A DNA stretch of 50,493 nt from assembly GCA_021811085.1 (NCBI GenBank), contig JAJZPQ010000025.1, positions 1 through 50,493 of the forward strand, in the 5' to 3' direction. The notes under the pieces are model-generated. The model had not been told where the DNA came from. It did no database searches and was given only the letters and a program-made list of their open reading frames with translations. Source of the stretch: Pseudomonadota bacterium (GTDB lineage Bacteria > Pseudomonadota > Gammaproteobacteria > Burkholderiales > SG8-39). Position numbers and translations under genes: made by a program. Shown in pieces: positions 5,265-44,149 of this stretch (position 1 is the stretch's first letter; each line of letters opens with the position of its first letter).

Positions 5265-5305
5265 TTGATCTTGGTCAAACGCGAGCGCAGGCCGGAGATT
5301 AAGCT
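5265..5305 (+). promoter_or_regulatory. FNR-type box and -10 element upstream of DksA-like/Usp genes
   Basis: The box TTGATcttgGTCAA spans 5265-5278, and TAAGCT at 5300-5305 fits a -10 element with its first base 28.5 bases from the box centre. This matches class II activation by FNR/CRP-family regulators and recurs at seven other sites in the window. The GTG start of the DksA-like gene is at 5328. Confidence 0.6.
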
Positions 5306-5327
5306 GGAATCGAACCTGTGCCCGAAT

Positions 5328-5717
5328 GTGCCGACCGTGCCCGAAAATCGATATGCGGAATTCCGCGCTCAGCTGCAGGCGCAACGCGCGCAGCTGCTGG
5401 GAGAAGTGCGCGAAATAATCGCCGCCTCGGGGGAAGGTCTGGGCTTAGCCAACCAGTCCAAGATCACCGACGACGACGGCCTCGCCGATGCGGCCGCGGA
5501 AATGGACATTGCGCTGGTCAGGCGCGAGAGCCAGGAATTGCGGGACGTGGAGGCTGCGCTCACGCGCATGGACGCGGGCAGCTACGGCAGCTGCGCCGAC
5601 TGCGGCGACGAGATCGGCCGGGCACGGCTGCAAGCCTATCCGGCTGCAATGCGCTGCGTGTCCTGCCAGGAAAAATTCGAGCATGCGCAAAGCCAAATAC
5701 ACAAAACCGGGCTGTAG
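5328..5717 (+). CDS. DksA/TraR family zinc-finger protein
   Basis: A 129-residue protein of the DksA/TraR family, whose members bind in the secondary channel of RNA polymerase and modulate initiation. The N-terminal half is a helical hairpin (YAEFRAQLQAQRAQLLGEVR). The C-terminal half carries the four-Cys zinc finger CADC...CVSC seen as SYGSCADCGDEIG and AMRCVSCQEKFE. The GTG at 5328 is chosen because the open frame upstream runs through the promoter region; a weaker GTG lies 3 codons later. It precedes the universal stress gene by 50 bases and shares its FNR-type promoter. Confidence 0.83.
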   Translation: MPTVPENRYAEFRAQLQAQRAQLLGEVREIIAASGEGLGLANQSKITDDDGLADAAAEMDIALVRRESQELRDVEAALTRMDAGSYGSCADCGDEIGRARLQAYPAAMRCVSCQEKFEHAQSQIHKTGL

Positions 5718-5767
5718 GCGATAATCGAGCCGCCGGACCAATTGCAACATTCTTGACTGGGGGCAAT

Positions 5768-6217
5768 ATGTACACGCACATTCTGGTACCCACCGACGGA
5801 TCCGAGCTGTCCGACAAAGCCGTCGCAGCGGCGCTCAAGCTGGCCAAACTCGCAGGCGCGCGCATCACGGCCTTTCACGCGGTCGAACCCTATCCACTGC
5901 AGGGCGCCTACGCCGCCGAAGCCAGCGGCGTGGCTGAACTGCAGCCGGAGGTGTTCGCCGAACGCAGCGAGGAATACGCCAAGCGCGTGCTCGATGCGGT
6001 CGCGCGCAACGCCGCCGCGGCGAACGTGCAATGCACGACCGCATACGCCACCGCCCGCTCGGTGTCGCAGGCGATAGTCGACAAGGCGCGCGCGGAGAAC
6101 TGCGATCTGATCGTGATGGCCTCTCACGGCAGGCGCGGGCTGGAAGGGTTTCTGCTCGGAAGCGAGACACAGAAAGTTCTCACCCACTCCACGATACCGG
6201 TACTGGTCTATCGCTAA
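5768..6217 (+). CDS. Universal stress protein UspA family
   Basis: A 149-residue single-domain Usp. The N-terminal MYTHILVPTDGSELSDKAV and the C-terminal ATP-binding signature G-x2-G-x9-G-S, seen in GRRGLEGFLLGSET, place it in the ATP-binding subgroup. The ATG at 5768 follows a G-rich ribosome binding site (tgggggc). The gene is followed by a strong hairpin terminator. An FNR-type box upstream of the preceding gene fits the known anaerobic induction of Usp genes in proteobacteria (family knowledge). Confidence 0.92.
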   Translation: MYTHILVPTDGSELSDKAVAAALKLAKLAGARITAFHAVEPYPLQGAYAAEASGVAELQPEVFAERSEEYAKRVLDAVARNAAAANVQCTTAYATARSVSQAIVDKARAENCDLIVMASHGRRGLEGFLLGSETQKVLTHSTIPVLVYR

Positions 6218-6236
6218 GGACAGGTTGGTTAAAAGC

Positions 6237-6264: not shown

Positions 6265-6699
6265 GGCCGCAGCGCCCGCCGCTGTTTCCACAGGCGCTGG
6301 AATCGACGGCATTGCGTCCGCCACCCGCGCACAGCGATATCACCAAAGCTTTGTCCGCATCGCGCTGCAATGCCTGTTGAATTCGCGCGGCCGCTTGATA
6401 TTTCTCAAACGGATTTCGAATCCCCTGCGTACTCTTTCAGCAAGGCCAAAGGCATTAATCAATCACATTTCCGGATGCGATCCATTGCCGAGTTCGATCG
6501 CGTGCGCATCAGATTCATTCTGCCGCGCTTTGGCCGCCACTGCCGCTGGCTTGTATATGCGCGCATGTGCATACATTGATAAAACGCAAAATCTATTTTC
6601 GCCGCCGATGCCTAATAACGACAGCCGATGCGATTTCAATTGGAGCGTGTGAACACAATGGTTTTCATAGGCGCGACTCGAGCGAAACGGAACGAAACT
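6265..6699. other. Intergenic leader before the octaheme cytochrome operon
   Basis: No gene could be supported in these 435 bases. A perfect 10-bp palindrome ATGCGCGCAT lies at 6557-6566, inside a longer imperfect inverted repeat that begins GTAT and ends ATAC. It may be an operator for the downstream operon. A TTGAT half-site at 6576 is too poor to call an FNR box. Confidence 0.4.
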
Positions 6700-8301
6700 A
6701 TGCGCACCGGAATATTCATGGCGGCCCTGATGGCTGCCATGCTGCTTGCCCCCGCAGTCGACGCTGCCTCCGACCCGGGCTCGGCGAAGTTGCTGAAGTC
6801 CACCGCCGACCACAGCCAGTTCAAAGCTCTGCAGCAGGAATTCAATTCCGGACCGGAAGTCACCAAGGCCTGCCTCAGCTGCCATACGGAAGCCTCCAAG
6901 CAATTGCACAAGACCGAACACTGGAAGTGGGAATACAGGAACGCACAGGGCCAGCTGCTGGGCAAGAAGACGCTCATCAACAACTTCTGTACCACGCCGG
7001 TCACCAACGAGGCGGCCTGCAATATCTGCCACATCGGTTACGGCTGGAAAGACGACAGCTTCGACTTCACTTCGGAAGTCAACGTCGACTGCCTGGTCTG
7101 TCACGACAGCACCGGCAACTACCGCAAACCTGCGGGTCTGGCAGGCAACGTGGTGACCAAGGAGATGGAATTTCCGCCCGGCTCCGGCAACATCATCAAA
7201 CCGATCAATCTGAAGAAGATTGCGCAGGCGGTAGGCAAGACCAGCCGGGACAACTGCGGCGCCTGCCATTTCTACGGCGGCGGCGGAGACGGCGTCAAGC
7301 ACGGCGACATGGACAGTTCGCTCGCCTCGCCGGACAAGGCGCTCGACGTGCACATGGACGCACTCGGCAACGACTTCGCCTGCTCCACCTGCCATATGAC
7401 GCAGGGCCATCAGGTGCCCGGCAGCCGCTATGCGCCGACCGCGCAGGACAAGGGCGAGGCGCACCTGCGCGGCAAGGCGTACAAAACCAACCCCACCACC
7501 TGCCAAGCCTGCCACGGCCAGGCACCGCACAAAAAAATCGCCAAGCTCAACGACCATACCGATAAGGTCGCCTGCCAGACCTGCCACATACCCAAATTCG
7601 CGCGCGGCGGCATCGCCACCAAGATGTCCTGGGACTGGTCCACCGCCGGCAAGATGGGACCCGATGGCAAGCCGCTGACCATCAAGGACGCCAAGGGGCA
7701 TCCGATCTATACCGCCATTAAAGGCGATTTCGTCCTGGGCGAGAACGTCGTGCCCGAGTACCTATGGTTCAACGGCACAGTGACCTACACGCTGCGCAGC
7801 GACAAGATCGACAAAGGCAAGGAGCCCGTCCGGATCAACCACTTCGAGGGCAGTGCCGGCGACGGCAAATCGCTGATCTGGCCGGTCAAGATCATGCGCG
7901 GCAAGCAAGCCTTTGACTCGGTGAACAAGACTCTGATCGTGGCGCACCTCGCAGGAAATGACGACACCGCCTACTGGACCAACTTCAATTGGGAGAAAGC
8001 GGCCGCCGTCGGCATGGCCGCGGTCGGCGAGCCGTTCTCGGGCAAGGTGGATTTCGTCAAGACGGAGAGCACCTGGCCGATCACCCACATGGTCGCCCCG
8101 GCCAAGGACGCGCTGCGCTGCCACGACTGCCATGCCTCCGGCGGCCGCCTGGAAAAAGTGCGCGGCGTCTACATACCCGGCCGCGCCAGCGATCACGCAG
8201 GCTGGCTCGACACCACGGGCTGGGCGATCGCGGCACTGACCTTGCTCGGCGTACTCGGCCACGGCCTGGCGCGCGTCCTCGCATCCAGGCGCAACAAGTA
8301 A
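6700..8301 (+). CDS. Octaheme c-type cytochrome, tetrathionate reductase (OTR) family
   Basis: A 533-residue exported multiheme protein. An N-terminal signal peptide (MRTGIFMAALMAAMLLAP) precedes eight CxxCH heme sites at about residues 58, 107, 131, 186, 228, 268, 292 and 474. The C-terminus has one hydrophobic segment and a basic tail, so it is probably a membrane-anchored periplasmic protein. The family member from Shewanella reduces tetrathionate, nitrite and hydroxylamine in vitro; the true substrate here is unknown. The start at 6700 gives a standard signal peptide; ATGs at 6628 and 6658 (with GGAG upstream) remain open alternatives. It heads an operon with cytochrome b, cytochrome c, YeeE and rhodanese genes. 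Confidence 0.88.
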   Translation: MRTGIFMAALMAAMLLAPAVDAASDPGSAKLLKSTADHSQFKALQQEFNSGPEVTKACLSCHTEASKQLHKTEHWKWEYRNAQGQLLGKKTLINNFCTTPVTNEAACNICHIGYGWKDDSFDFTSEVNVDCLVCHDSTGNYRKPAGLAGNVVTKEMEFPPGSGNIIKPINLKKIAQAVGKTSRDNCGACHFYGGGGDGVKHGDMDSSLASPDKALDVHMDALGNDFACSTCHMTQGHQVPGSRYAPTAQDKGEAHLRGKAYKTNPTTCQACHGQAPHKKIAKLNDHTDKVACQTCHIPKFARGGIATKMSWDWSTAGKMGPDGKPLTIKDAKGHPIYTAIKGDFVLGENVVPEYLWFNGTVTYTLRSDKIDKGKEPVRINHFEGSAGDGKSLIWPVKIMRGKQAFDSVNKTLIVAHLAGNDDTAYWTNFNWEKAAAVGMAAVGEPFSGKVDFVKTESTWPITHMVAPAKDALRCHDCHASGGRLEKVRGVYIPGRASDHAGWLDTTGWAIAALTLLGVLGHGLARVLASRRNK

Positions 8302-8997: not shown

Positions 8998-9390
8998 ATG
9001 AAAGGCAAATTCACATTGGGCGTGCTGACACTCATGCTGAGCGCTGGCGCGATGAGCGCGGCACAAGCCTACGACGGTGACTGGAAGCGCGGCCGCATTT
9101 ATTACCGCCAGGTGTGCACCGTCTGCCACACCACCGAACTGAAAAAAGCAATCGGCCCCAACGAAAGGACCCAGGCGGAATGGGCGGCGTTCTTCAAGAA
9201 CGACAAACACGGCAAAGGCAAAGATACGGTGAAGCACTTCTTCAGCAAGCAATACCGCGACAGCATCAAGGCAACGAACGCGGCGGCGGCGAAATTTGCC
9301 GCTGTGCCCGATAACGAACTGCTCGAGGATGTCAAAGCCTTCCTCAACAGGAGCGCCAAGGACGGCGACGCGCCGGCCGGGTGCAGCTAG
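8998..9390 (+). CDS. Small periplasmic monoheme cytochrome c
   Basis: A 130-residue protein with a signal peptide (cleavage near AQA-YDGDW) and a single heme site CTVCH. The region after the heme is Lys-rich (NDKHGKGKDTVKHFF). It probably shuttles electrons between the membrane cytochrome b and the octaheme protein; that is inferred from the operon. Its end overlaps the following YeeE gene by 10 bases if the latter starts at the first GTG. Confidence 0.82.
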   Translation: MKGKFTLGVLTLMLSAGAMSAAQAYDGDWKRGRIYYRQVCTVCHTTELKKAIGPNERTQAEWAAFFKNDKHGKGKDTVKHFFSKQYRDSIKATNAAAAKFAAVPDNELLEDVKAFLNRSAKDGDAPAGCS

Positions 9391-20411: not shown

Positions 20412-23400
20412 TCAAGCCGCAGGCTGCGCCGGCCAGCGTTTCCAGTTCGCCGCGTAATACAGCACCGGAATCACCACCAGCGTAAGCACGGTGGACACCA
20501 GGATGCCGAAGATAAGCGAGATCGCCAGGCCGTTGAAAATCGGGTCGTCGAGAATGAACAGCGCGCCCAGCATCGCCGCCAGGCCGGTGAGCACGATGGG
20601 TTTGGCGCGCGTGGCGCCGGCGTTGATCACGGCATGCTCGAAATCCGCGCCCCCTTCCATCTGCAGGTTGATGAAATCCACCAGCAGGATGGAATTGCGC
20701 ACGATGATGCCGGCGAGCGCGATCATGCCGATCATGGAGGTCGCGGTGAACTGCGCGCCGAGCAGCGCATGCCCGGGCATCACGCCGATGATGGTGAGCG
20801 GGATCGGCGCCATGATGATCAGCGGCACCAGGTAGGACTTGAACTGCGCCACCACCAGCAGGTAGATCAGGATCAGGCCGACCGCATAGGCGAGCCCCAT
20901 GTCGCGGAACGTCTCATAGGTCACCTGCCACTCGCCGTCCCACTTGATTGCATAGCCGGCATAGGCGTCGGCCGGCTGGTGTATGTAGTATTCGCCCAGC
21001 GTTCCGCCCTGCGCCAGCGGCTTGCCGATGATGCGGCTGCGGATATCGAACATGCCGTAGAGCGGGCTGTCGAGTTTGCCCGCCATGTCGCCCACCACGT
21101 ACACCACCGGCAGCAGGTCCTTGTGATAATAGGTGATGTCGCGCGCGACGCTCTCGGCGTGCACCAGTTCGGACAGCGGAATCAGCGCGCCGCTGGCGCT
21201 GCGCACTTTCAGCCGCAGCAGCGTGTCGACGCGGCTCGCCTGCGCCGGCGGCAGCGATACCCGCACCGGCACTTCGTATTTGGCGCCGCTGTCATGCAAA
21301 GGCGTGACGTCCTCGCCCGCAAGCCCGATGCGCACGGCGGCGACGATATCGCTTTGCGCGACGCCGATCAGCGCGGCCTTGGCCTGATCCACGCGCAGGC
21401 GCAGCTTCGGCGCAGCCTCGTCGACGCTGTCGTCGACGTCGACGATGTCCGGCGTGGCGGAGAAATCGGCGCGCAGCTTCTGCGCCACCGCGATCTGGCC
21501 CGCATAGTCCGGGCCGTATACCTCGGCCACGATCGGCGCCTGCACCGGCGGGCCCGGCGGCACTTCGACGACTTTCAGCGACGCGCCGTTGCGCTGGGCG
21601 ATCGCCGCGAGCTGCGGGCGCAAAGCGAGCGCGATTTCATGGCTTTGGCGGCTGCGGTGGTGCTTGTCCACCAGGTTCACCTGGATGTCGCCGAGTTCGG
21701 GCGACTGGCGCAGGTAGTACTGGCGCACCAGGCCGTTGAAGTTGATCGGCGCGCTGGTGCCGGCGTAGGCCTGGTAGTCGGTGACTTCGGGCACGGTCGC
21801 CAGATAGGCGCCCATTTCCTGCAGCACGGCAGAGGTCCGCTCCAGCGGCGTGCCGGTGGGCATGTCGACCACCACCTGCAGCTCGGACTTGTTGTCGAAC
21901 GGCAGCATTTTCAGCACCACCAGCTTCAGTCCGGCAAGCGACACCGCTGCGACGATCAGCACCAGTATGCCGACATAGAGTTTGGTTCGCGCCGCGCCCC
22001 CTCTTGCGCCGCCGAGAAACGGCCCGATCACGCGGCGGAACAGGCGCAGTATCCCCGTCTCTTGCGGTTCCTCGCCGATCGCGGTGCTATGCGGCTTGAG
22101 CAGCCTCAGCGCGAGCCAGGGCGTCACGATGAACGCGATCGCGAGCGAGATGATCATGCCCATGCTGGCGTTGATCGGAATCGGGCTCATATACGGGCCC
22201 ATCAGGCCGGTGACGAAGGCCATCGGCAGCAGCGCTGCGATCACGGTGAAGGTCGCGAGTATGGTCGGGCCGCCGACTTCATCCACCGCGTCCGGAATCA
22301 GCGCGGCCAGCGACAAGCCCGAATGCGCGCCGCGGCGGTGGATGTTCTCCACCACCACGATGGCATCGTCGACCAGGATGCCGATCGAAAATATGAGCGC
22401 GAACAGCGATACGCGATTGAGCGTGAAACCCCAGGCCCAGGACGCGAACAGCGTCGCAGACAGCGTCAGAATCACGGCCGCGCCCACGATCACCGCCTCG
22501 CGCCGCCCGAGTGCAGCCCATACCAGCACCACCACGGACAGCGTCGCGAAGATCAGCTTCTCGATCAGCTTCATCGCCTTGTCGTTGGCGGTCACGCCGT
22601 AGTTGCGCGTGACCGAGACTTCGACGCCTTCCGGCACGACGCTGCCTTTGAGCTGCTCCACCCGCTGAATCAGGTGGTCCGCAACATCGACGGCGTTCTC
22701 GCCCGGTTTCTTGGAAATCGCCAGCGTCACCGCCGGAAACTCGCCCTGCGCCTTGTCGCTGCCGGCAACGCCGTTGCCGTACCAGACGTAATGCGTGGGG
22801 AGTTCGGGGCCGTCTTTCACCTGCGCCACGTCGTCGAGGTAAATCGGCCGCCCTTGCACTGCGCCGACCACCAGGCGCTTCACCTGCTCGGCTGAACTCA
22901 GGAACTGGCCGGTCTCGATCTGGGTTTCGGTGTTTCCGTCCACCAGGCTGCCCGCAGGCATCGCGACGTTGGCCGCGATCAGCGCATTGCGCACGTCCAT
23001 CGGCGTCAGGCGCCAAGCGTGCAGGCGCTCGACGTCGAGCAGCACGCGCACTGCGCGCTGCGCGCCGCCCAGCGTGTTCACTGCGCGCACGCCGGACACG
23101 CGCTGCAACTGGATCTCGGCCGCATGCGCGATCTGCTCCAGCTGAAACGCGCCGCGCGCCGGATCGGCGGTCCACAGCGTCAGGCTCACGATGGGCACGT
23201 CGTCTATGCCCATCGGTTTGATGATCGGTTCGCCCACGCCCAGCGACGGCGAGACCCAGTCCCGGTTCGAATTGATGGTGTCGTACAGACGCACCAGCGC
23301 CTGGGTGCGATCCTCGCCCACCTTGAACTGCACCGTGAGCACCGCCAGGCCCGGTTTGGTCACCGAGTAGATATGCTCCAGGCCGGTGATGCGCGCGAGC

Positions 23401-23618
23401 ACCTGCTCGGCCGGCGTGGTCACCAGCGATTCCACGTCCTTGGCGGAGGCGCCCGGGAACGGAATCAGCACGTTGGCCATGGTGACGTTGATCTGCGGCT
23501 CTTCCTCGCGCGGCGTCACCAGCACCGCAAACACGCCGAGCAGCAGCGCAATCAGCGCGATCAGCGGCGTCATCTGCGATTGCAGGAAAGTTTTGCTGAT
23601 ACGTCCGGAGATGCCCAT
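20412..23618 (-). CDS. RND efflux permease
   Basis: A 1068-residue inner-membrane RND transporter. The N-terminal helix region, the two large periplasmic loops and the second half with EYYIHQP and VMPGHALLGAQF follow the AcrB plan. The proton-relay acid pair is seen in SIGILVDDAIVVVENIHRR on helix 4. The start at 23618 (MGISGRISKTF) is chosen since the open frame upstream is made of short tandem repeats. Together with the adaptor gene upstream it forms a pump; no outer-membrane channel is encoded nearby. Substrate not predictable from sequence. Confidence 0.9.
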   Translation of the reverse strand: MGISGRISKTFLQSQMTPLIALIALLLGVFAVLVTPREEEPQINVTMANVLIPFPGASAKDVESLVTTPAEQVLARITGLEHIYSVTKPGLAVLTVQFKVGEDRTQALVRLYDTINSNRDWVSPSLGVGEPIIKPMGIDDVPIVSLTLWTADPARGAFQLEQIAHAAEIQLQRVSGVRAVNTLGGAQRAVRVLLDVERLHAWRLTPMDVRNALIAANVAMPAGSLVDGNTETQIETGQFLSSAEQVKRLVVGAVQGRPIYLDDVAQVKDGPELPTHYVWYGNGVAGSDKAQGEFPAVTLAISKKPGENAVDVADHLIQRVEQLKGSVVPEGVEVSVTRNYGVTANDKAMKLIEKLIFATLSVVVLVWAALGRREAVIVGAAVILTLSATLFASWAWGFTLNRVSLFALIFSIGILVDDAIVVVENIHRRGAHSGLSLAALIPDAVDEVGGPTILATFTVIAALLPMAFVTGLMGPYMSPIPINASMGMIISLAIAFIVTPWLALRLLKPHSTAIGEEPQETGILRLFRRVIGPFLGGARGGAARTKLYVGILVLIVAAVSLAGLKLVVLKMLPFDNKSELQVVVDMPTGTPLERTSAVLQEMGAYLATVPEVTDYQAYAGTSAPINFNGLVRQYYLRQSPELGDIQVNLVDKHHRSRQSHEIALALRPQLAAIAQRNGASLKVVEVPPGPPVQAPIVAEVYGPDYAGQIAVAQKLRADFSATPDIVDVDDSVDEAAPKLRLRVDQAKAALIGVAQSDIVAAVRIGLAGEDVTPLHDSGAKYEVPVRVSLPPAQASRVDTLLRLKVRSASGALIPLSELVHAESVARDITYYHKDLLPVVYVVGDMAGKLDSPLYGMFDIRSRIIGKPLAQGGTLGEYYIHQPADAYAGYAIKWDGEWQVTYETFRDMGLAYAVGLILIYLLVVAQFKSYLVPLIIMAPIPLTIIGVMPGHALLGAQFTATSMIGMIALAGIIVRNSILLVDFINLQMEGGADFEHAVINAGATRAKPIVLTGLAAMLGALFILDDPIFNGLAISLIFGILVSTVLTLVVIPVLYYAANWKRWPAQPAA

Positions 23619-23623
23619 GTCCA

Positions 23624-23707
23624 GTTCGTGGTTCGTGGTTCGTGGTTCGAGATTCGTGGACGTTGTTCGCGGCTCGTCGTACGAACAACGAGCAACGAGC
23701 AACGATT
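23624..23707. repeat. Seven-base tandem repeat array
   Basis: Between the two RND genes a 7-base period runs for about 84 bases. It starts as GTTCGTG repeated, drifts through GTTCGAG and ATTCGTG, and ends as AACGAGC repeated. The two halves are roughly reverse complements, giving a weak hairpin. Read on the minus strand it encodes a PRTTNHE-like peptide repeat. It is not part of either gene. Confidence 0.8.
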
Positions 23708-23714
23708 ACTTGAC

Positions 23715-24785
23715 CTACTTGCCGCCGCGCTTGAGTGCGGCCAGGGCCGCTACCGGGTCGAGTGCGACTTTTTCTCCGGGTGCCAGGCCGGCGAGTACTT
23801 CCACCTCGTCGCCCGCGACCCCTTCTCCGAGACGCAGCTGACGGAAGCGGATTGCGCCGTTATCGCCGACGACATAGGCGCCGTTCACTTCGCTGCGCTT
23901 GGCCACTGCGGCTGCGGGGACCAGCAGTTTCTTCACCTTGCCCACGGCGAAATAGGCGCGCGCGAACATGCCCGGATACAGGCCTTCGATGCCCGGCGGC
24001 AGATCCAGCCGCACCTGCGTCGTGTGCGTTTGCGCGTCTGCTGCCGGCAGGATGGTCACCTTGGTCGCCGGCACGCGCTTGTTCAGGGCCGGGAACTCGG
24101 CGCTGGCGCGCCCGAGCTTGCGCACCGCATCGAGTTCGCGCTGCGGCATGCTCGCCGTGACACGCAGCTCGCTCGGATCGAAACCCGTCATGAGCGGCTT
24201 GCCCGGCACCGCCATCTCGCCCAGTTCGACCAGGCGCGCAGACACCACGCCGCTGTAGGGTGCAGTCACCGTGGCGTAGCCCTTGGTGGCCGCAGCCTGG
24301 CCGCCGCCGGCCTCGGCCACGGCAAGCTGCGCCTTGGCCGCGAGGTAATCGGCCCGCGCCTTGTCCAGCGCGGCTGCGCTCATGAATTTCTGCTGTACCA
24401 GGCTTTGCGTGCGTTCAAACTGCGATTTTGCGTTGCGCAGCGTCGCGTCGGCCTGGGCTATCTGCGCCTGGCTTGCGGCATAGGCCTGGTTGACTTCGGA
24501 GGGATCGATGCGCACGATCACCTGGCCTTTTTTGACCCAGTCGCCGACGTCGAAATTCACCGCGACCACGCGGCCGGAAATCTGCGCCGCGACCGTGGAC
24601 TGCTTTACCGCCTCGACCACGCCTTCGGCGGCATAGGTCTCGTCCACTTCGCGAAATTGCACCGGCGCGGTGCGCAGCGCCGGTGCATCTGCCAGAGCGG
24701 CATGCGGCATGAGCGCGGTCGCGAGCGCCATACCGGCAAACGCAGTGCGCAACAAAGAAATGTCTCGAGTAATCATGGCGCTCAT
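23715..24785 (-). CDS. RND periplasmic adaptor (membrane fusion protein)
   Basis: A 356-residue adaptor linking the permease to an outer-membrane channel. A signal peptide (cleavage near ALA-DAPAL) is followed by the split lipoyl domain (GRVVAVNFDVGDWVKKGQVIVRID and GYATVTAPYSGVVSARLVELGE), a helical hairpin and a beta-barrel with LLVPAAAVAKR. Starts at 24785 and 24776 are both possible. An FNR-type box with a -10 element lies just upstream. The heptamer array separates it from the permease gene. Confidence 0.88.
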   Translation of the reverse strand: MSAMITRDISLLRTAFAGMALATALMPHAALADAPALRTAPVQFREVDETYAAEGVVEAVKQSTVAAQISGRVVAVNFDVGDWVKKGQVIVRIDPSEVNQAYAASQAQIAQADATLRNAKSQFERTQSLVQQKFMSAAALDKARADYLAAKAQLAVAEAGGGQAAATKGYATVTAPYSGVVSARLVELGEMAVPGKPLMTGFDPSELRVTASMPQRELDAVRKLGRASAEFPALNKRVPATKVTILPAADAQTHTTQVRLDLPPGIEGLYPGMFARAYFAVGKVKKLLVPAAAVAKRSEVNGAYVVGDNGAIRFRQLRLGEGVAGDEVEVLAGLAPGEKVALDPVAALAALKRGGK

Positions 24786-24819: not shown

Positions 24820-24860
24820 AGGTTACCGAAGCGCGGCTGCGTCTCTATGATATGTGTCAA
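24820..24860 (-). promoter_or_regulatory. FNR-type box and -10 element before the RND operon
   Basis: On the minus strand TTGACacatATCAT occupies 24860-24847 and TAACCT occupies 24825-24820, with 28.5 bases from the box centre to the -10. The adaptor ATG follows at 24785. The box differs from the palindrome at one base in the second half. Confidence 0.5.
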
Positions 24861-27035: not shown

Positions 27036-27791
27036 TTGATTCTAGTCAAGTTGCTCGTCGTCCCGACGTTTCTGCTGCTCATTTCGCTTGCCGGCAGGCG
27101 CTGGGGACCGGAGGTCGCAGGCTGGCTCGCGGGTTTCCCGGTGCTCACCGGGCCTATCCTATTTCTGTTGGCCCTTGAAAACGGCCCCGGCTTTGCGGCA
27201 GCCGCCGCCACCGTTTCCTTGTCCGCCGTGTTCGGCGCGGTCGCGTACATCCTCACCTATGCGCGCGTCTGCGCGCGCCGGTCGCCCGGACTTTCCCTGC
27301 TCTCCGGCCTGGCCAGCTGGGTCTGCGCCGCACTGCTGCTGACCTCGCGTCCGCTTGCCCTGTTTGTTTCCTTGGGCATCGCGCTGCTCACGCTCGTGCT
27401 CGCGCCGAAGTTGTTTCCGCGCGTCGCGACGCCGGTATTGACCGCCGCCGTGCCCAGATGGGAACTGCCGCTGCGCATGCTGGCGGGCGCCGTGCTTACG
27501 CTCGCCGTGACCGCGGCCGCCGCGGCGATCGGACCTTCGTGGAGCGGAATGTTCGCCGTATTCCCGGTAATCGCGATCGTGTTGTCAGTGTTCTCGCATC
27601 GGACCTCCGGTCCGGCATTTGCCGTGATTCTGCTCAAAGCCATGGTCCGTGGACTGTACGCGTCCACAAGCTTCTGCCTTACCCTGGCCGCCGTGTTGCC
27701 GCATCACGGCGTGACCGTCTCATTTCTTGCCGCAACCGCCGTGGCCGTCGTGGTTCAGTGGGCGCTGAAATCGCGCCTGCAACGGCGCTGA
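27036..27791 (+). CDS. Polytopic membrane protein, unknown function
   Basis: A 251-residue protein with about seven hydrophobic helices (LLVVPTFLLLISLAG, WLAGFPVLTGPILFLLALE and others). The repeated pattern GFPVLTGP early and FAVFPVIAIVLSVF later suggests two related halves. Gly-Pro motifs recall small permease-like proteins, but no family is firmly recognised. The proposed TTG start at 27036 lies within a sequence that reads TTGATtctaGTCAA, identical to an FNR-type palindrome; a start further downstream is not obvious. Confidence 0.65.
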   Translation: MILVKLLVVPTFLLLISLAGRRWGPEVAGWLAGFPVLTGPILFLLALENGPGFAAAAATVSLSAVFGAVAYILTYARVCARRSPGLSLLSGLASWVCAALLLTSRPLALFVSLGIALLTLVLAPKLFPRVATPVLTAAVPRWELPLRMLAGAVLTLAVTAAAAAIGPSWSGMFAVFPVIAIVLSVFSHRTSGPAFAVILLKAMVRGLYASTSFCLTLAAVLPHHGVTVSFLAATAVAVVVQWALKSRLQRR

Positions 27792-33076: not shown

Positions 33077-33137
33077 TGCGCCTGAGCCTAGGCTTTCGCC
33101 CAAGGTCGGCTTCCCGAGCGTGTCGGGGACGGCAGTT

Positions 33138-33213: not shown

Positions 33214-33514
33214 ACCACCGGCCGTTGGCGACGGATTTAGGCCGACCGGCCGCTTTCCATTCCGACAAATGCGTACTCATGACCCAAAGCGAAAATAGGA
33301 CAGTTCGAAAAGCAGCCGCTCAACCCCGGGCAGCAGGCGCGCGCCACTTGCGGCGCATGGGTCTCCAAGCCGTTGTTCGGTGGCGCGAACTAGAATAGAC
33401 GCTGCCGCGTGCTAGGGCAGCGGATTGGAGAGTTGTGTATAACCCAAACAACGACTATTCGATCGTGGTGCACAGTGATCGACAGTCTAAGAGGCTACGA
33501 ATTACGCAACCAGA
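33214..33514. other. Intergenic region with no recognised feature
   Basis: About 300 bases with lower GC content than the surrounding genes. A GTG-started frame on the plus strand (33435-33680) overlaps the minus-strand gene below antisense and is not favoured. No repeat or promoter was recognised. Confidence 0.4.
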
Positions 33515-34383: not shown

Positions 34384-34424
34384 ACGTTACCTCTGCCCAG
34401 CCGTTCCGATATGACAATAATCAA
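34384..34424 (-). promoter_or_regulatory. FNR-type box and -10 element for the DUF2934 gene
   Basis: On the minus strand TTGATtattGTCAT occupies 34424-34411 and TAACGT occupies 34389-34384, 28.5 bases from the box centre. The surrounding 22 bases match the site at 39458-39479 at 19 positions. Confidence 0.55.
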
Positions 34425-34747: not shown

Positions 34748-34788
34748 TTGACGATAGTCAATTGCAGGCGCTTTTCGGGGAATAAGAT
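34748..34788 (+). promoter_or_regulatory. FNR-type box and -10 element for the 34885 gene and CheR
   Basis: The box TTGACgataGTCAA at 34748-34761 is a perfect TTGAC-N4-GTCAA palindrome, and TAAGAT at 34783-34788 sits 28.5 bases from its centre. Transcription would begin near 34796, about 90 bases before the ATG at 34885. Confidence 0.65.
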
Positions 34789-34884: not shown

Positions 34885-35172
34885 ATGGAAATCCGCGTCG
34901 AATCCTATGCCGGCTACCGCGATGAACAAGAGCCGCGGGCGTTCTGGCTTGGCCAACGACGGATCGAGGTGGTCGAGTTAATCGACCGCTGGCTTTCACC
35001 TGAGCACCGCTACTTCAAGGTCAGAGCGCCCGATGGCGACGCCTATATCCTGCGCTACGACGAAGCGCTAGGGATATGGGAGCTCGGCGCCTTTACCCGC
35101 TCGCGAACGGCGACTGCCGACAGTCCAACTCCAAAGCGGCCGCACTCACCGCGCGCCGACGACCCGGAATGA
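34885..35172 (+). CDS. Conserved small protein (DUF6504-like)
   Basis: A 95-residue soluble protein. The block PRAFWLGQRRIEVVELIDRW then HRYFKVRAPDGDAYILRYDE and WELGAF follows a small beta-rich family seen in proteobacteria and actinobacteria; the DUF number is given from memory. The C-terminal 25 residues are Pro-, Ser- and Arg-rich and look disordered. A GGAGGAGG ribosome binding site precedes the ATG. It is 16 bases upstream of the CheR-like gene. Confidence 0.7.
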   Translation: MEIRVESYAGYRDEQEPRAFWLGQRRIEVVELIDRWLSPEHRYFKVRAPDGDAYILRYDEALGIWELGAFTRSRTATADSPTPKRPHSPRADDPE

Positions 35173-35188: not shown

Positions 35189-36025
35189 ATGACGGACGAC
35201 GACTGTGTCAAATTCCTGCAGATGGCGCTCCCGCGGCTCGGTCTGCATTGGCCGGGCTATCGCAGGGTGCGCGGACTCGTTCGAAAGCGGCTGGGAAAGA
35301 GACTGCGCGATCTGCGCATCTCCAATCTCCGGGCTTATGTGCCTTACATCGAGAACCACTACGAGGAATGGGACGCGCTCGATCAACTTTGCCGCATCCC
35401 GATTTCGCGCTTTTACCGCGACTGCGGCGTGTTCGAGCGCCTCGAGCATGAAGTGCTGCCGGCGCTTGCCGAAACCGCTGCGGCGCGGAGCCGGAGCAAT
35501 CTCGCTTGCTGGAGCGCCTGTTGCGCCTCTGGCGAGGAGGCTTACACCCTTGTCTTGCTCTGGCGTCTGCGCATTAAGCGCCGGTTTCCGCAATTGCAAC
35601 TGCGCATAGTCGCAACCGACATCGACGCGCATCTGCTCGAGCGCGCCCGCAGCGGTTGTTACCGTTCGAGCAGCCTGAAGGCGTTGCCGGAAGATCTGCT
35701 GACGGCAGGATTCACCCGGCGTGAAACGCAATTCTGCGTCCGCAACGAGTTTCGCTCCATCGATTTCCTGCAGCAGGATATGCGTAAGGTCGTTCCCGAC
35801 GAAGAATTCGATTTGGTACTTTGCCGCAACGCCGCGCTCACCTACTTCGCGCCCCCGCTGCGGTGCAAGGTGATGCAACGAGTGATCTCGCGCGTGCGGC
35901 GCAGCGGCGCGCTCGTGATTGGAATCCACGAATCGTTGCCTCAGGGTCTAAGCGAAATGGTGCCATGGCCGGGTGCTCGCGCCATCTACCGCAGGCGCGA
36001 TGCGGACGCAGTGCCCACCGATTGA
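35189..36025 (+). CDS. CheR-type methyltransferase, without chemotaxis neighbours
   Basis: A 278-residue protein with the CheR layout: an N-terminal helical domain (about 1-75) and a SAM-binding domain. Motif I is CWSACCASGEEAYTLVLLW, where CheR normally has CSTGEEPY; IVATDIDAHLLERARSG and FDLVLCRNAALTYF (normally CRNVLIYF) also fit. CheR methylates glutamates of chemoreceptors. No chemoreceptor or che gene is in the window, and the gene shares an FNR-type promoter with a small protein, so another target is likely. Confidence 0.82.
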   Translation: MTDDDCVKFLQMALPRLGLHWPGYRRVRGLVRKRLGKRLRDLRISNLRAYVPYIENHYEEWDALDQLCRIPISRFYRDCGVFERLEHEVLPALAETAAARSRSNLACWSACCASGEEAYTLVLLWRLRIKRRFPQLQLRIVATDIDAHLLERARSGCYRSSSLKALPEDLLTAGFTRRETQFCVRNEFRSIDFLQQDMRKVVPDEEFDLVLCRNAALTYFAPPLRCKVMQRVISRVRRSGALVIGIHESLPQGLSEMVPWPGARAIYRRRDADAVPTD

Positions 36026-36063
36026 CTTTGGTCAACAAGCACCATTGCGCCGGCTGTTAGCGT
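36022..36063 (+). promoter_or_regulatory. FNR-type box and -10 element for the AIR-synthase gene
   Basis: The box TTGACtttgGTCAA at 36022-36035 is a perfect palindrome overlapping the stop of the CheR-like gene. TAGCGT at 36058-36063, preceded by TG, lies 29.5 bases from its centre. The site at 40678 has nearly the same sequence between box and -10, so the two promoters look copied. Confidence 0.65.
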
Positions 36064-36216: not shown

Positions 36217-37254
36217 TTGGCTACTGCAGATAAGCCGAAAGGGCTGCTGGGTGTCGGAAAGCTCCCGCCAGAGCTCCTGTCAACGATTCTTGCGCACGCG
36301 GCCGTCGACGACCCGCGTGTGATATTGGGCCCGGGCATTGGCTTGGATTGCGCGGTCGTGGACCTTGGCGACCGTCTCGCCGTTTACAAATCCGACCCGA
36401 TTACCTTCGCGAGCGACCAGATCGGCTATTACCTCGTGCATGTGAATGCAAACGATATCGCGACTACCGGGGCGCAGCCCCTGTGGCTGCTGGTGACCCT
36501 GCTCCTGCCGCACCAGGGAACGACGGCGGAACTGCCCAATGCGGTCATGACGCAGATCTACGACGCGTGCCACGATCTGGGAATTGCCGTCATCGGTGGT
36601 CATACGGAAATTACGACGGCATTGGACCGGCCCATTGCCGTGGGCACACTGGTCGGCGAAGTGGCCCGCGACAAGCTCATTACGCCGCGTGGCGCCCGCG
36701 CAGGCAACCGCATACTGCTGACCAAAGGCGTGCCGATCGAGGCCACCACGCTGCTCGCGCGCGAATTTCCTGCACGCCTGCGCGGCGCGTTGACGAGCAC
36801 CGAAATCACGGCGGCACAGAACTATCTGTTTGAACCGGGGATAGGCATCACGCGCGATGCGCGCATTGCGCTCGAGGCGGGGTGCGTGACGGCGATGCAC
36901 GATCCGACGGAGGGCGGCATTGTGACCGCATTGTGGGAACTCGCCCAAGCGAGCGACAATACACTTCGTGTCGATCCAGGCGCAATCCCCGTGCCTGCTC
37001 TCGCGCGCCGCGTTTGCGCAGCGCTCGGAATCGACCCGTTCCACGCGCTCGCTTCTGGCGCGCTGCTGCTGACCGCGCCGCCCTCCGATGCCGCAGCAAT
37101 ATGCCAAGCGTTGGCGCGGGAGGGCATCGCATGCGCGGACATCGGCGTTGTAGCCGACGGACCGAGCATCGTAGAACGAAGAACATCGGCGGGCTACGAG
37201 GTGTGGCGGCCGCCTGCGGCCGACGACATCACGAAAGCGTTTACTGAATCCTGA
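36217..37254 (+). CDS. AIR synthase-related protein (HypE/PurM-like)
   Basis: A 345-residue protein of the PurM/HypE/SelD ATP-binding fold. Visible are GPGIGLDCAVVDLGDRLAVY, the VHVNANDIATTGAQP motif that binds Mg-ATP, and VIGGHTEITTALDRPIAVG. It lacks the C-terminal Cys used by HypE and the N-terminal Cys/Sec loop of SelD, so its reaction is not known. A TTG start at 36217 has GGAG ten bases upstream. It is the first gene of a unit with the DUF1614 gene under an FNR-type promoter. Confidence 0.8.
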   Translation: MATADKPKGLLGVGKLPPELLSTILAHAAVDDPRVILGPGIGLDCAVVDLGDRLAVYKSDPITFASDQIGYYLVHVNANDIATTGAQPLWLLVTLLLPHQGTTAELPNAVMTQIYDACHDLGIAVIGGHTEITTALDRPIAVGTLVGEVARDKLITPRGARAGNRILLTKGVPIEATTLLAREFPARLRGALTSTEITAAQNYLFEPGIGITRDARIALEAGCVTAMHDPTEGGIVTALWELAQASDNTLRVDPGAIPVPALARRVCAALGIDPFHALASGALLLTAPPSDAAAICQALAREGIACADIGVVADGPSIVERRTSAGYEVWRPPAADDITKAFTES

Positions 37255-39063: not shown

Positions 39064-39384
39064 CTAGACGCCGCGGTTGCGCGGCGGCCCGGCGTACTCG
39101 CCGGCTGGCACATCGACCCGATCCGCTTTCACTTGGCAATGCGGTTTATTGCCGGCTATATCGAAGCGGTTACACCAGTGATAAGGGCGAAGGTTTTGCG
39201 GCTTGTCCGGCGTGCCGCCGGCAAGCTTTTCGATCTTCCAGCCGAACTCCGAATGGCTGTCACCGAACTGGTCGCGACGCATCCAAGCGCCGCACGCGTC
39301 CTGCCGCCACACGGACGGGTCGGCATCCGGCATCGCCCTGCCATGCTGCCACACCGCTTCGATAGATTCTTCTTTCCAATCCAT
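39064..39384 (-). CDS. Hypothetical protein, HNH-like C-terminal pattern
   Basis: A 106-residue protein. The end of the conserved part, KLAGGTPDKPQNLRPYHWCN, has the Asn-Leu-x-Pro-x-His order of the second half of HNH nucleases, but the catalytic DH pair is absent, so nuclease activity is doubtful. Several Trp residues (AVWQHGR, SVWRQDACGAWM) are likely structural. The start at 39384 fits the conserved beginning MDWKEESIEAVWQ. An FNR-type promoter lies about 60 bases upstream. Confidence 0.55.
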   Translation of the reverse strand: MDWKEESIEAVWQHGRAMPDADPSVWRQDACGAWMRRDQFGDSHSEFGWKIEKLAGGTPDKPQNLRPYHWCNRFDIAGNKPHCQVKADRVDVPAGEYAGPPRNRGV

Positions 39385-39437
39385 AGCCTGTTCCGCTGGG
39401 ATCAAGGATCGCCCGCCCTGGCGCTTTCGATATTTTC

Positions 39438-39478
39438 AGGCTAACGCTGCTCGACTTCTCCAATATGAGAATAATCAA
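39438..39478 (-). promoter_or_regulatory. FNR-like box and -10 element for the 39384 gene
   Basis: On the minus strand TTGATtattCTCAT occupies 39478-39465 and TAGCCT occupies 39443-39438, 28.5 bases from the box centre. The second half-site has two mismatches; the case rests on its likeness to the site at 34411. Confidence 0.45.
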
Positions 39479-40677: not shown

Positions 40678-40719
40678 GTGACTTTCGTCAACAAGGACCG
40701 GCACGGCGGCTGTTAGCAT
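40678..40719 (+). promoter_or_regulatory. FNR-type box and -10 element for the PRPP operon
   Basis: The box GTGACtttcGTCAA at 40678-40691 has one mismatch. TAGCAT at 40714-40719, preceded by TG, lies 29.5 bases from the centre, the same as at 36022. The hydrolase ATG follows at 40761. Confidence 0.63.
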
Positions 40720-40760: not shown

Positions 40761-41444
40761 ATGCAACCATCGCCACGTGTCCAGGTCAGCATTCCGGCGG
40801 ACGGCCGGCAGCTCGAAGGTGAATTGATCGTGCCCGGCGGCGCGTCTGGCGTCGTTGCCTTTGCGCACGGCAGCGGCAGCAGTCGGCACAGTCCGCGCAA
40901 TCAATTCGTTGCGCAGGTGCTGCAGCAGGCGGGGCTCGCGACGCTGCTGCTCGATCTGCTCGAGGAAGACGAAGCGCGGGACCGGCACAAGGTGTTCGAC
41001 ATTGAACTGCTCGCCCTGCGCCTGCTCGCCGCCGCGCGCTGGCTCGGCGACAACCCCACCACTCGCTCCCTCGCGCTCGGCTATTTCGGCGCCAGCACCG
41101 GGGCGGCGGCGGCTCTCGTCGCCGCGGCACGCGATCCCGGAAGGGTAGCTGCGGTCGTGTCCCGGGGCGGGCGTCCCGACTTGGCGATGCGCTGGCTGCC
41201 GCAGGTGAAAGCACCGACGCTGCTGATCGTCGGCGAGAATGATGAGCCCGTGCTGCAGTGGAACCGCGATGCGTATGAACGTTTAGGCGTCGAGAAGGAC
41301 TTGGTTGTAGTTCCGCGCGCGACGCATCTGTTCGAAGAACCCGGCGCGCTCGAGGAAGCGGCGCAGCACGCCTGCCGCTGGTTCGTGCGCCACCTTTCTC
41401 CGCTTGGCGTGCGCTCCGGTGCCAGCGGAAAGGCAGAGCGATGA
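40761..41444 (+). CDS. Alpha/beta hydrolase (dienelactone hydrolase-like)
   Basis: A 227-residue hydrolase. The oxyanion motif VAFAHGSGSSRHSPRN, the nucleophile elbow GYFGASTGAAAAL (Ser in GASTG), an Asp in VGENDEPV and the His in PRATHLFEEPG form a complete catalytic set. Substrate unknown. Its stop overlaps the start of the PRPP synthetase gene (ATGA), so the operon is translationally coupled. Confidence 0.85.
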   Translation: MQPSPRVQVSIPADGRQLEGELIVPGGASGVVAFAHGSGSSRHSPRNQFVAQVLQQAGLATLLLDLLEEDEARDRHKVFDIELLALRLLAAARWLGDNPTTRSLALGYFGASTGAAAALVAAARDPGRVAAVVSRGGRPDLAMRWLPQVKAPTLLIVGENDEPVLQWNRDAYERLGVEKDLVVVPRATHLFEEPGALEEAAQHACRWFVRHLSPLGVRSGASGKAER

Positions 41445-42382
41445 GCGCAGTCGCGCTCATCGCCGGGGATGCCCACCCGCAACTGGCGCGCGAAATTGCG
41501 CGTTCGATGGGAACGTCTCTGGTTCCCGCCTCCGTCTCGGCCTTTGCCGACGGAGAGACGCGCGTGCGCATCGAGGCCGAAGTCCGCGATGCAGACCTGT
41601 ACATCGTGCAACCGACTTCGGTGCCGACCAATGAGCGCCTGATGACGCTGGCGCTGCTCGCCGACGCCGCGCGCGCCGCTGGCGCAGCGCGCATCACCGC
41701 AGTGATGCCCTATTTCGGCTACGCGCGCCAAGACGTGCGCAAGAGCCCGGGCGAGCCGCGGTCGGCTCAGCTTGCGGGGCGTATCCTGCGTTGCGCCGGC
41801 GTCGAGCGGATGGTGGCGCTCGAGCTGCATTCGCCGGCGCTGGAGAGCGCCTTCGAGATGCCGCTCATTCACCTGCGCGCCGACGATCTGATGCTGCCCG
41901 CGATCCGAGACTGCGGTTTTTCTCGGCTTACGGTCGTGTCGCCCGATGCCGGCGGCCTCAAGCGCGCGCAGCGTTACGCGCAAGCCCTGGCAGCGCCGCT
42001 GGCGGTCGTGGCGAAGACCCGTCCGCGCGCCGACGCGGCGGTCGTGCAGCAAGTGCTTGGCGACGTGCGCGGCCGCGCCTGTCTCATCGTCGACGACATG
42101 GCCAGCACCGGCGGCACTATCGTGGGCGCGGCACAGGCCCTGCTCGAAGCGGGAGCCGCGGCGGTTCACGCGCTCTTTATCCATGCCGTCATGGCGCCAG
42201 GCGCGCTGGAACGCATCGGCGCGGCATCGGTGCGGACCATCATGACAACCGACAGCGTGCGCATCGCGATCGATCCTCGAGTCCGGATCGTGCCGATTGC
42301 GCCGCTCCTCGCGCAGACTCTGGGCCGGCTCACGGGCCGAAGCACCCTTCGAACGGAGGTGACCGATGTTCAGGAATCGTGA
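41441..42382 (+). CDS. Ribose-phosphate pyrophosphokinase paralog
   Basis: A 313-residue PRPP synthetase homologue that would transfer pyrophosphate from ATP to ribose 5-phosphate. The FADGETRVRIE start region, MPYFGYARQDVRKSPGEPRS (ATP-binding flexible loop), VSPDAGGLKRAQRYA and the PRPP loop VDDMASTGGT are present. Relative to housekeeping Prs, the loops around the catalytic Lys are changed, so it may be specialised or a regulatory paralog. It sits between a hydrolase and a phosphoribosyltransferase, overlapping both, which suggests PRPP made here is used locally. Confidence 0.83.
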   Translation: MSAVALIAGDAHPQLAREIARSMGTSLVPASVSAFADGETRVRIEAEVRDADLYIVQPTSVPTNERLMTLALLADAARAAGAARITAVMPYFGYARQDVRKSPGEPRSAQLAGRILRCAGVERMVALELHSPALESAFEMPLIHLRADDLMLPAIRDCGFSRLTVVSPDAGGLKRAQRYAQALAAPLAVVAKTRPRADAAVVQQVLGDVRGRACLIVDDMASTGGTIVGAAQALLEAGAAAVHALFIHAVMAPGALERIGAASVRTIMTTDSVRIAIDPRVRIVPIAPLLAQTLGRLTGRSTLRTEVTDVQES

Positions 42383-43028
42383 AGACGCGGCGTTGCAGCT
42401 CGCACAGCGCTTGAAGGCGCGTAGGCTGAAGGATCCGGTCGTTCTCGGGATTCCACGCGGGGGCGTGGTGACCGCAGCCATTCTGGCGCGCGAGCTCGGC
42501 GCCGAGCTCGACGTCGTGTTGTCGCGCAAGCTGCGGGCGCCGTATCAGCCGGAACTCGCCATCGGCGCCATTGGCGAAGACAGCGAGGTATACCTCAACG
42601 CATTCGCACGCAAAGCGGCCGGTATGACCGAAGCGTACATCCGCGAGGAGCGGGACCACCAGATCGCGGAAATCATGCGGCGCAGCAAGCTCTTCCGCGC
42701 GGTGAGACCGCCTGTCGACGTGACGGGGCGATCGGTGATCGTCACCGATGACGGCATCGCCACCGGTTCGACCATGCTCGCCGCGCTGCATGTGCTGAGT
42801 GCGCAGAAGCCGCAAGAGATCATAGTGGCGGTGCCCGTGGCACCGCCAGAGACGATCGAGAGGTTCCGCCCGCACTGCAGCCACGTCGAATGCCTGCTTA
42901 CACCCGGGAACTTCGAGGCAATCAGCCAGTTCTATGCAGACTTCCGGCAAGTCGAGGACGAGGAAGCGGTCCGGCTGCTGCGCGAGTCCCGCGCTCCGCT
43001 TGGGGCGGTGAAATCAACTCCGCGGTAG
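42366..43028 (+). CDS. Phosphoribosyltransferase family protein
   Basis: A 220-residue type I phosphoribosyltransferase. GIPRGGVVTAAILARELGAE forms the pyrophosphate loop, and VIVTDDGIATGSTM is the PRPP-binding motif with two Asp residues. The hood region (RKLRAPYQPELAIGAIGEDS) differs from known purine enzymes, so the base is unknown. It starts inside the end of the PRPP synthetase gene (17-base overlap). This phosphoribosyltransferase type commonly accompanies hydrolases and stress genes. Confidence 0.85.
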   Translation: MFRNREDAALQLAQRLKARRLKDPVVLGIPRGGVVTAAILARELGAELDVVLSRKLRAPYQPELAIGAIGEDSEVYLNAFARKAAGMTEAYIREERDHQIAEIMRRSKLFRAVRPPVDVTGRSVIVTDDGIATGSTMLAALHVLSAQKPQEIIVAVPVAPPETIERFRPHCSHVECLLTPGNFEAISQFYADFRQVEDEEAVRLLRESRAPLGAVKSTPR

Positions 43029-43081
43029 GGCGCACGCGTGAGATTCGTTGCTCGGACAGAGCTACTGAAAGAGGGACAGCC

Positions 43082-43606
43082 ATGAATATTGAAGGCATGT
43101 GCACGCACAGCGTCGTCACCGCCGACCGCTCCAGAACGCTGCAGGAATGCGCGGCGCTGATGGGCGAGAACCATGTCGGGTCGATACTAGTGACCGAGGA
43201 AACGCCGGATGGCCCCCAGGCAGTAGGGCTCGTAACCGACCGGGATCTGGTCGTCGAGGCCATGGCGCACGGCATGGCGCCGGGACAGACGTCGATAGGA
43301 CAGATTACCGCGAGACGTCTGGTCGCGGCGCCCGCAACTGCCAGCATCGATGAAGCCATCCAGGTGATGAACAGCGAAGGTGTACGGCGCCTTCTTGTCG
43401 CATCACCCGATCGACGGCTGGTGGGGATCATTTCAATGGACGACCTTCTCATGGCGCTGGCCGGCAAGATAGCCGGCGCTGCGCTGGCCGGCGAAATAGC
43501 CGGCATTGCGCAGGCGATTCGCCGCGGCTTGACGCGCGAAACGGCCGCAATACGCCGCAGTTGCGAGCTGTGCGGCGAGCGTTCGGTGCGGCTGCCTGCG
43601 CCTTGA
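43082..43606 (+). CDS. CBS-pair protein
   Basis: A 174-residue protein with two CBS motifs (about 5-65 and 75-130), a Bateman module that typically binds adenosine nucleotides. The second motif ends LLVASPDRRLVGIISMDDLLMAL. After it comes an Ala-Gly rich stretch built on a 27-base tandem duplication, and a C-terminal CELCGERSVR that has a Cys pair and may bind metal. The ATG follows AGAGGGACAGC. Last gene of the PRPP operon; it may sense adenylate charge. Confidence 0.82.
   Translation: MNIEGMCTHSVVTADRSRTLQECAALMGENHVGSILVTEETPDGPQAVGLVTDRDLVVEAMAHGMAPGQTSIGQITARRLVAAPATASIDEAIQVMNSEGVRRLLVASPDRRLVGIISMDDLLMALAGKIAGAALAGEIAGIAQAIRRGLTRETAAIRRSCELCGERSVRLPAP
43454..43507 (+). repeat. 27-base tandem duplication inside the CBS gene
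   Basis: Two in-frame 27-base units (43454-43480 and 43481-43507) encode ALAGKIAGA and ALAGEIAGI. They differ at a few bases and form a short Ala-Gly helix after the second CBS motif. Confidence 0.8.
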
Positions 43607-44149
43607 GTCGGTGCGTCGCCCGCTTTTCTGAGCACGCAAGAGGTGCGCGGATGAAGGTGGCCAGCATGCCCACTTACGTGCGGGCGGGTGAATTCAAGCA
43701 TTGGACGCCCGATCCGGGTCGACTGCGGCCTCAGGCACGCTCGGCAAGCAAATACTGGCCAAATTGTTAGGGAGTGGACGGCGCCCCGGACAACAAGTGC
43801 CAAAACCAGGCACCAGCGAGCGTCCGCCAAGTCGAATGCCGCGCCTGTGACGGTAGTCAACAGCTTACTGGCAGTTTCCTGATACAAAACTCGACAACTA
43901 CCCCACGTTCCGAGACTAGGCAGTGCCCTGCTCCCCGCGGAATTGGCGCGACCGATGATGGATTGGGCTGAGGAAAGGGGTCATTGGCCTAGCTTGCTAG
44001 TGGCAGTTACAGCGCTCAGGCACCCGTTCCAAATGTGGTAGGGCCATGCATAAAAAATTAAGGAAAAAAAGATGCGATTCCGCCCTGCGGCTTAAGTGAT
44101 GGCCCGGCTTGCTTGCATCGTCTGTGTCAATGCCGGGTCCCGCATCATT
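43607..44149. other. Gap between convergent operons, with an orphan FNR-type promoter
   Basis: No protein gene could be supported in these 543 bases; frames are short and lack ribosome binding sites. The base composition falls toward AT near 44050-44070. One FNR-type promoter reads rightward into it (listed separately), so a small RNA or a lost gene is possible. Confidence 0.45.
43847..43888 (+). promoter_or_regulatory. FNR-type box and -10-like element without a gene downstream
   Basis: The box GTGACggtaGTCAA at 43847-43860 has the same one-base deviation as the PRPP-operon site. TACAAA at 43883-43888, with TG two bases before, lies 29.5 bases from the centre. Downstream on this strand is only a non-coding stretch up to the convergent AcoX gene. 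Confidence 0.42.

Follow-up and report, generated by a model that had tools for sequence, protein, structure and literature searches.

Does a group of FNR-type boxes in a stretch of Burkholderiales DNA mark promoters that respond to low oxygen and, if so, which genes would they control? The stretch (50,493 nucleotides, hereafter the window) is contig JAJZPQ010000025.1 of assembly GCA_021811085.1, from a bacterium of lineage SG8-39, and constitutes contig C3 of a draft genome of 4.48 Mb in 148 contigs. As oxygen falls, FNR keeps its [4Fe-4S] cluster, dimerises and binds TTGAY-N4-RTCAA; with the site centred about 40-42 bases before the transcription start, sigma-70 RNA polymerase is recruited to the -10 element. 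An earlier note on this DNA listed eight such boxes, each with a -10 element 28.5 or 29.5 bases from the box centre, and proposed that they form one regulon lying before DksA and universal stress protein (Usp) genes, an RND operon and most units of a 34-44 kb island; each of the eight boxes is present, position and strand included. Our analysis indicates that the window sites are very probably class II FNR-type promoters active at low oxygen; that an FNR protein binds and activates them, that oxygen is the signal and that they serve anoxic survival is what we infer.

One line of evidence comes from the genome as a whole, for which the earlier note had suggested a matrix scan. The exact box TTGAYNNNNRTCAA occurs at 68 places genome-wide, fully listed by three sub-pattern searches (21 + 32 + 15), as compared to one for the reversed pattern; the dinucleotide make-up of the window would predict 7.8. 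When TAnnnT is tallied by its distance in either direction from the centre of all 68 boxes (136 arms), a sharp peak appears at the claimed distance: 21 occurrences at 28.5 and 11 at 29.5, against 0-4 at any other distance from 8.5 to 69.5. No site is counted twice among these 32 occurrences; 29 of the sites lie outside the window and three within it (5265, 34748 and 36022). The spacing geometry that the earlier note derived from eight sites thus holds genome-wide. Most of the boxes lie outside strong open reading frames (ORFs), both those with a class II -10 element (28 of 32) and the other exact boxes (30 of 36), while the window is about 73% coding by the same kind of ORF score; the possibility raised in the earlier note, that box plus spacing might be equally common in random or coding DNA, is not borne out. 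Furthermore, the pattern extends to the family: across 46 genomes (this one included), box plus a 21-base gap to TAnnnT is found 412 times (reversed pattern, 1) and box plus a 22-base gap 206 times (reversed pattern, 3), with 4 and 7 of the 46 genomes, respectively, having none. The shorter step, equivalent to 28.5, thus outnumbers the longer one, equivalent to 29.5, by roughly 2:1 across the family.

To score the window itself, we used a model of box, spacing and -10 element trained only on the 29 class II sites from the rest of the genome. Nine window sites score above 16, compared to 0.05 per window in 100 simulated windows of the same dinucleotide make-up (Table 1), and no match above 17 was obtained in 840,060 bases of simulated sequence with the make-up of a relative. 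The claim that every listed box has its -10 element at 28.5 or 29.5 holds for seven of the eight (scores 17.0-32.0, with 39465 the weakest accepted) and fails at 43847. The list of sites is amended in the same measure: 43847 is removed, 6395(+) is added, having been missed although it is among the best, and 27036(+) had gone unlisted. With 43847 set aside, the boxes do stand before DksA-Usp, the RND operon and units at 34-44 kb, with candidate target genes behind them; predicted leaders range from about 15 to 254 bases (dksA being counted from the in-frame GTG at 5328).

Table 1. Predicted FNR-type boxes of the window and the genes near them. Numbers after the -10 hexamers are distances in bases from the box centre.
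Feature	Position	Strand	Remarks
Predicted FNR box TTGATCTTGGTCAA, -10 TAAGCT at 28.5	5265..5305	+	before dksA-usp; score 32.0
DksA/TraR-type zinc-finger protein	5328..5717	+	PF01258; in-frame GTG starts at 5328 or 5337
Universal stress protein	5768..6217	+	PF00582, E 1.4e-33; ATG at 5768
Predicted FNR box TTGATATTTCTCAA, -10 TACTCT at 28.5	6395..6435	+	score 24.1; absent from the earlier list
Octaheme tetrathionate-reductase-family cytochrome c	6697..8301	+	TIGR04315, E 1.1e-187
Membrane fusion protein (23715-24785, PF16576) and RND permease (20412-23702)	20412..24785	-	
Predicted FNR box TTGACACATATCAT, -10 TAACCT at 28.5	24820..24860	-	RND operon promoter; score 23.9
Exact box TTGATTCTAGTCAA, poor -10 TCTGCT	27036..27049	+	score 19.1, nearly all from the box
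DUF2934 protein, 89 residues	33985..34254	-	PF11154, E 9.5e-16; presumed target of 34411
Predicted FNR box TTGATTATTGTCAT, -10 TAACGT at 28.5	34384..34424	-	score 21.2
Predicted FNR box TTGACGATAGTCAA, -10 TAAGAT at 28.5	34748..34788	+	score 24.2
95-residue protein, no Pfam match	34885..35172	+	homologues in 10 relatives
CheR-type methyltransferase gene	35189-36025		after the 95-residue gene
Predicted FNR box TTGACTTTGGTCAA, -10 TAGCGT at 29.5	36022..36063	+	score 23.2
AIR-synthase-family protein (HypE/ThiL/SelD-like)	36217..37254	+	under all NCBIfam cut-offs
DUF1614 protein	37289-37954		after the AIR-synthase-family gene
107-residue protein, no Pfam match	39064..39387	-	
Predicted FNR box TTGATTATTCTCAT, -10 TAGCCT at 28.5	39438..39478	-	score 17.0
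Predicted FNR box GTGACTTTCGTCAA, -10 TAGCAT at 29.5	40678..40719	+	score 18.4
Operon: alpha/beta hydrolase, phosphoribosyl pyrophosphate (PRPP) synthetase, phosphoribosyltransferase, CBS-domain protein	40761..43606	+	
Box GTGACGGTAGTCAA	43847..43860	+	promoter role unsupported; score 8.6

Only three of the eight boxes first listed are exact (5265, 34748 and 36022), the others (24847, 34411, 39465, 40678 and 43847) being near matches, of which 39465 deviates at two positions and falls outside the near-box class VTGAYNNNNRTCAA. This class is found at 172 places genome-wide, whereas its reversed pattern has 25 and composition alone would give 55, and near boxes are therefore in part a product of chance: many of them are so, some are real, and the -10 rule separates the two. 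Flanks were taken for 100 of the 172 places, 93 outside the window and seven inside. Outside, 12 of the 93 have a class II -10 element, as compared to a mean of 0.58 per other offset; inside, three of the seven do (24847, 34411 and 40678), and 32045, 37586, 43847 and 47517 fail. Could the whole set then be chance similarity in intergenic DNA? The four failing near boxes in the window behave in just this manner, as would the 55 near boxes that composition alone predicts, but for the set as a whole the idea is refuted by the nine high-scoring window sites, the sharp positional peak and the recurrence in relatives described below, and we regard its probability as negligible.

Five of the eight accepted sites (5265, 6395, 24847, 34411 and 40678) recur before orthologous genes, the number of relatives ranging from one to four per site. 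A class II site with TAAGCT at 28.5 precedes dksA (64-69% identity) and usp (85-88%) in the relatives G001, G010, G013 and G002. For the octaheme cytochrome gene, G010 and G013 have sites with the same imperfect TTCTCAA half as in the window, whereas no site above 17 stands directly upstream of the G002 homologue (46%). The RND operon of G010 lies behind TTGATGCATATCAT with TAACCT at 28.5, located between the trx-TPR and membrane fusion genes and close in sequence to the window's own TTGACACATATCAT with the same hexamer and distance, while in G001 the contig stops at the gene start. Also in G001, a DUF2934 homologue (52% over 50 residues) follows the exact box TTGACAAATGTCAA with TATGCT at 28.5. 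A clear site directly before the PRPP-synthetase operon is present in two of the seven relatives carrying the gene (G001 and G110); in G001, which belongs to the same genus, prs-prt-cbs stands behind TTGACTTTGGTCAA with TAGCAT at 29.5, with just a 26-residue hydrolase match between site and prs, and in G121 the site is weak. Finally, in G056 a class II site stands before a cheR homologue, and the homologue of the 107-residue gene comes after those of cheR and the CBS gene. Part of these data comes from 40 places picked for having a class II site, 12 of which match a window protein; such places therefore tell which gene comes after a site and are silent on the frequency of site loss. A scan of other contigs with the PRPP-synthetase protein kept 80 loci, with sites examined for L103 and L104 (72-73% identity; the other 78 are at 35-43%); L103 has no scored site, with little upstream DNA there, and L104 and L185 (G110) are apparently one contig.

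The promoters at 36022 and 40678 had been described as alike even between box and -10 element, and this likeness is real: 16 of 22 spacer bases are identical, a level that none of the 55 pairs of exact 29.5-type sites reaches (maximum 12 of 22). The spacer of the G001 prs promoter is identical to that of 36022 at 19 of 22 positions and to that of 40678 at 16 of 22. The resemblance among the three suggests a copied or exchanged promoter. A similar relationship between 34411 and 39465 was considered and is not claimed, as their 12 of 21 identical bases lie inside the range for other pairs (up to 13 of 21).

The earlier note had also called for an FNR-type regulator to be found. With PF13545, the one Crp-family model searched, the genome gives 19 matches, and the 14 above the cut-off were read. 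Among them are two complete FNR proteins with the four cluster cysteines (E 1.8e-58 and 3.7e-61 against solved FNR), an FNR-like fragment at a contig end (L062) and two FNR-like proteins without the cluster. In the first complete protein (L061, contig C38), three N-terminal cysteines and a central one align with those of solved FNR, and the recognition helix reads LETVSR; its presumed start is immediately preceded by an exact box, with no good class II -10 element there. The second (L065, C38:15157) likewise aligns at all four cysteines, and its helix reads EETVCR, in which a cysteine replaces the serine that, in the ETVSR helix, contacts the box. Which FNR acts on these sites, and its response to oxygen, we likewise infer.

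Taken together, box enrichment, the -10 peak, the FNR proteins and the recurrence of five of the eight accepted sites support the class II FNR-type reading and, because that reading is supported, a putative low-oxygen link for the genes at 34-44 kb is supported as well. In the mechanism we propose, low oxygen would leave an FNR protein with an intact [4Fe-4S] cluster, which would bind as a dimer to the box and bring sigma-70 RNA polymerase to the -10 element at eight promoters (5265, 6395, 24847(-), 34411(-), 34748, 36022, 39465(-) and 40678). DksA-Usp, the octaheme cytochrome operon and the RND operon would thereby be turned on, and the last five promoters would serve the 34-44 kb group of stress genes and genes of unknown function.

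Several observations weigh against this reading. A strict TAnnnT at the class II distance is absent from 36 of the 68 exact boxes, and the box by itself is therefore no proof of activation; some of these 36 may be promoters of lower strength, and others may be repressor sites or coincidences. As a class II promoter, 43847 is rejected, with a score of 8.6 (box 10.2, -10 about 0) and a TACAAA that lacks the final T; no same-strand gene is called downstream of it. Recurrence is likewise incomplete: no site stands directly before the PRPP-synthetase operon in G111, G125, G056 and G130 (of the seven relatives), the 95-residue gene has a scored site directly upstream in none of 10 relatives (three of which, G047, G006 and G050, had fewer than 500 bases upstream), and 36022 and 39465 have no equivalent with their own gene in the relatives examined. 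Lastly, the two FNR-like proteins that lack the N-terminal cysteine cluster (L063 and L064) carry ETVSR recognition helices, raising the alternative that the boxes are read mainly by a cluster-less FNR-family regulator of the DNR/FixK kind, with nitric oxide or another signal in the place of oxygen. FNR, FixK and DNR are treated as sharing a target sequence (PMC2908626). However, the genome has two complete four-cysteine FNRs, and the 28 targets scanned outside the window include multiheme cytochromes and stress genes, with no denitrification enzyme named among them; we consider this alternative unlikely.

Because two complete FNRs could share these boxes with an FNR-like fragment and with two cluster-less FNR-like proteins, the one regulon of the earlier description stays a proposal. 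A second possibility is that FNR paralogues divide the sites, exact boxes going to one and boxes with an odd end or a CTCAA half to another or to mixed dimers, as has been proposed in Herbaspirillum seropedicae. Besides the complete FNRs and the fragment, this idea draws on the recurrence of imperfect halves (ATATCAT at the G010 RND promoter, TTCTCAA at the cytochrome promoters of G010 and G013) and on the separate Fnr1 and Fnr3 groups of H. seropedicae, where end positions 1 and 14 are weak in Fnr3 sites (PMC5934665). On the other hand, the imperfect ends show no clear orientation preference (among the 12 near boxes with a class II -10 element outside the window, the odd end is upstream in eight and downstream in four), and the DUF2934 and prs sites of G001 are exact where those of the window are imperfect. 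We regard such a division as a real possibility, somewhat short of an even chance; the recurring imperfect boxes make paralogue-specific or mixed FNR dimers a testable proposal.

The putative regulon also has targets elsewhere in the genome. Of the 29 class II sites that lie beyond the window, 28 had their downstream ORF scanned (L035 was left out, its gene being common with L034); the choice of ORF was automatic, and some may be wrong, chiefly those far from the site (L028, L077). Usp genes lie behind two sites (L013, L034) and MtrC/MtrF-like cytochromes behind two more (L075, L076), from which FNR may control extracellular electron transfer. Both cytochrome genes are on contig C115 of this genome (G000), each with its own class II site. 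Further targets are a FAD-binding flavoprotein (L011), a U32 protein (L027), a hemerythrin (L022), a ribosome hibernation factor domain (L041), an AlaDh/PNT protein (L015), formate-tetrahydrofolate ligase (L042), an archease (L046), an MlaE permease (L021) and a CBS protein (L039); only two of the 28 scanned targets (L005, L016) have no Pfam match at E 1e-5.

Class II regulation by FNR is an already familiar kind of system. The Escherichia coli FNR regulon uses the same TTGATnnnnATCAA box, and of its 23 activated promoters whose start is known, 19 place the FNR site within 4 bases of -41.5 (PMC3688515). The genome described here may differ in its spacing, 28.5 being about twice as frequent as 29.5, and differs in its targets, among them a PRPP-synthetase operon, a CheR-like gene and genes of no known family. 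Several Fnr proteins are likewise found in H. seropedicae, in which Fnr1 directly controls a dksA operon and acts together with Fnr3 on two uspA genes (PMC5934665); in contrast to our target list, the main text of that study does not contain the word 'phosphoribosyl'. Pseudomonas putida has three FNRs of differing oxygen sensitivity (PMC4505428), and uspA falls within the predicted FNR core regulon of alphaproteobacteria (PMC2908626).

The clustering of sites in the window is reminiscent of the low-oxygen-activated (lxa) locus in Burkholderia cenocepacia, which has 50 genes (PMC6127331) and in which clustered stress and other genes are induced by low oxygen and tied to anoxic survival, and for which the FNR-type regulator BCAM0049 has been named as a possible oxygen sensor (PMC6127331, PMC9104464, PMC3759415). 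The words 'FNR' and 'phosphoribosyl' are both absent from the main text of PMC6127331. In Bradyrhizobium diazoefficiens, ribose-phosphate pyrophosphokinase, Usp, CBS-domain and MlaE-type genes are all listed as changed in microoxia, although this is an alphaproteobacterium and its pyrophosphokinase is listed beside a thymidine phosphorylase gene (PMC6515984). No description of FNR control of DUF2934 proteins or of this PRPP-synthetase operon was recognised in the literature searched, which carries little weight beyond that search.

A bolder proposal is that the 34-44 kb group serves this betaproteobacterial family as a module for anoxic dormancy. FNR paralogues acting on asymmetric boxes maintained by selection would then set PRPP supply, the CheR-like methyltransferase, and the AIR-synthase-like and small unknown-family proteins, each promoter having its own oxygen threshold. 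We consider this speculative and quite improbable. The CheR-like methyltransferase has no recognised chemotaxis context within the window.

What this analysis adds is the strength of the spacing rule, the family's 2:1 bias towards 28.5 as against 29.5, the recurring imperfect boxes and a putative low-oxygen link for proteins of unknown function. The box with its 28.5 or 29.5 step to TAnnnT offers a sequence-only way to read the anaerobic regulon of uncultured relatives, since the rule picks promoters out from among many near boxes. It would attach a low-oxygen role to the DUF2934, DUF1614, 95-residue, 107-residue and CheR-like proteins, all of which are without known function.

Some further features of the window are of note. 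The gene group of the octaheme cytochrome continues up to 11813 with a cytochrome b561, a small protein (8998-9390, no NCBIfam match), a sulfur transporter and a rhodanese protein, and is followed at 12070 by an OmpR-like regulator. The RND permease matches RND families, every one of them under its curated cut-off. Small RNAs behind 34411 and 34748 were entertained as candidates, gene calling having at first left these places empty, and dropped once the DUF2934 and 95-residue genes had been located there, and the window has no Rfam family at gathering score. Finally, a 78-base near-palindromic repeat (33137-33214 and 49187-49264; copies 96% alike, 83% self-complementary) flanks the 34-49 kb segment; a search of the genome gave these two copies only, and related copies occur on three contigs of the same-genus relative G007.

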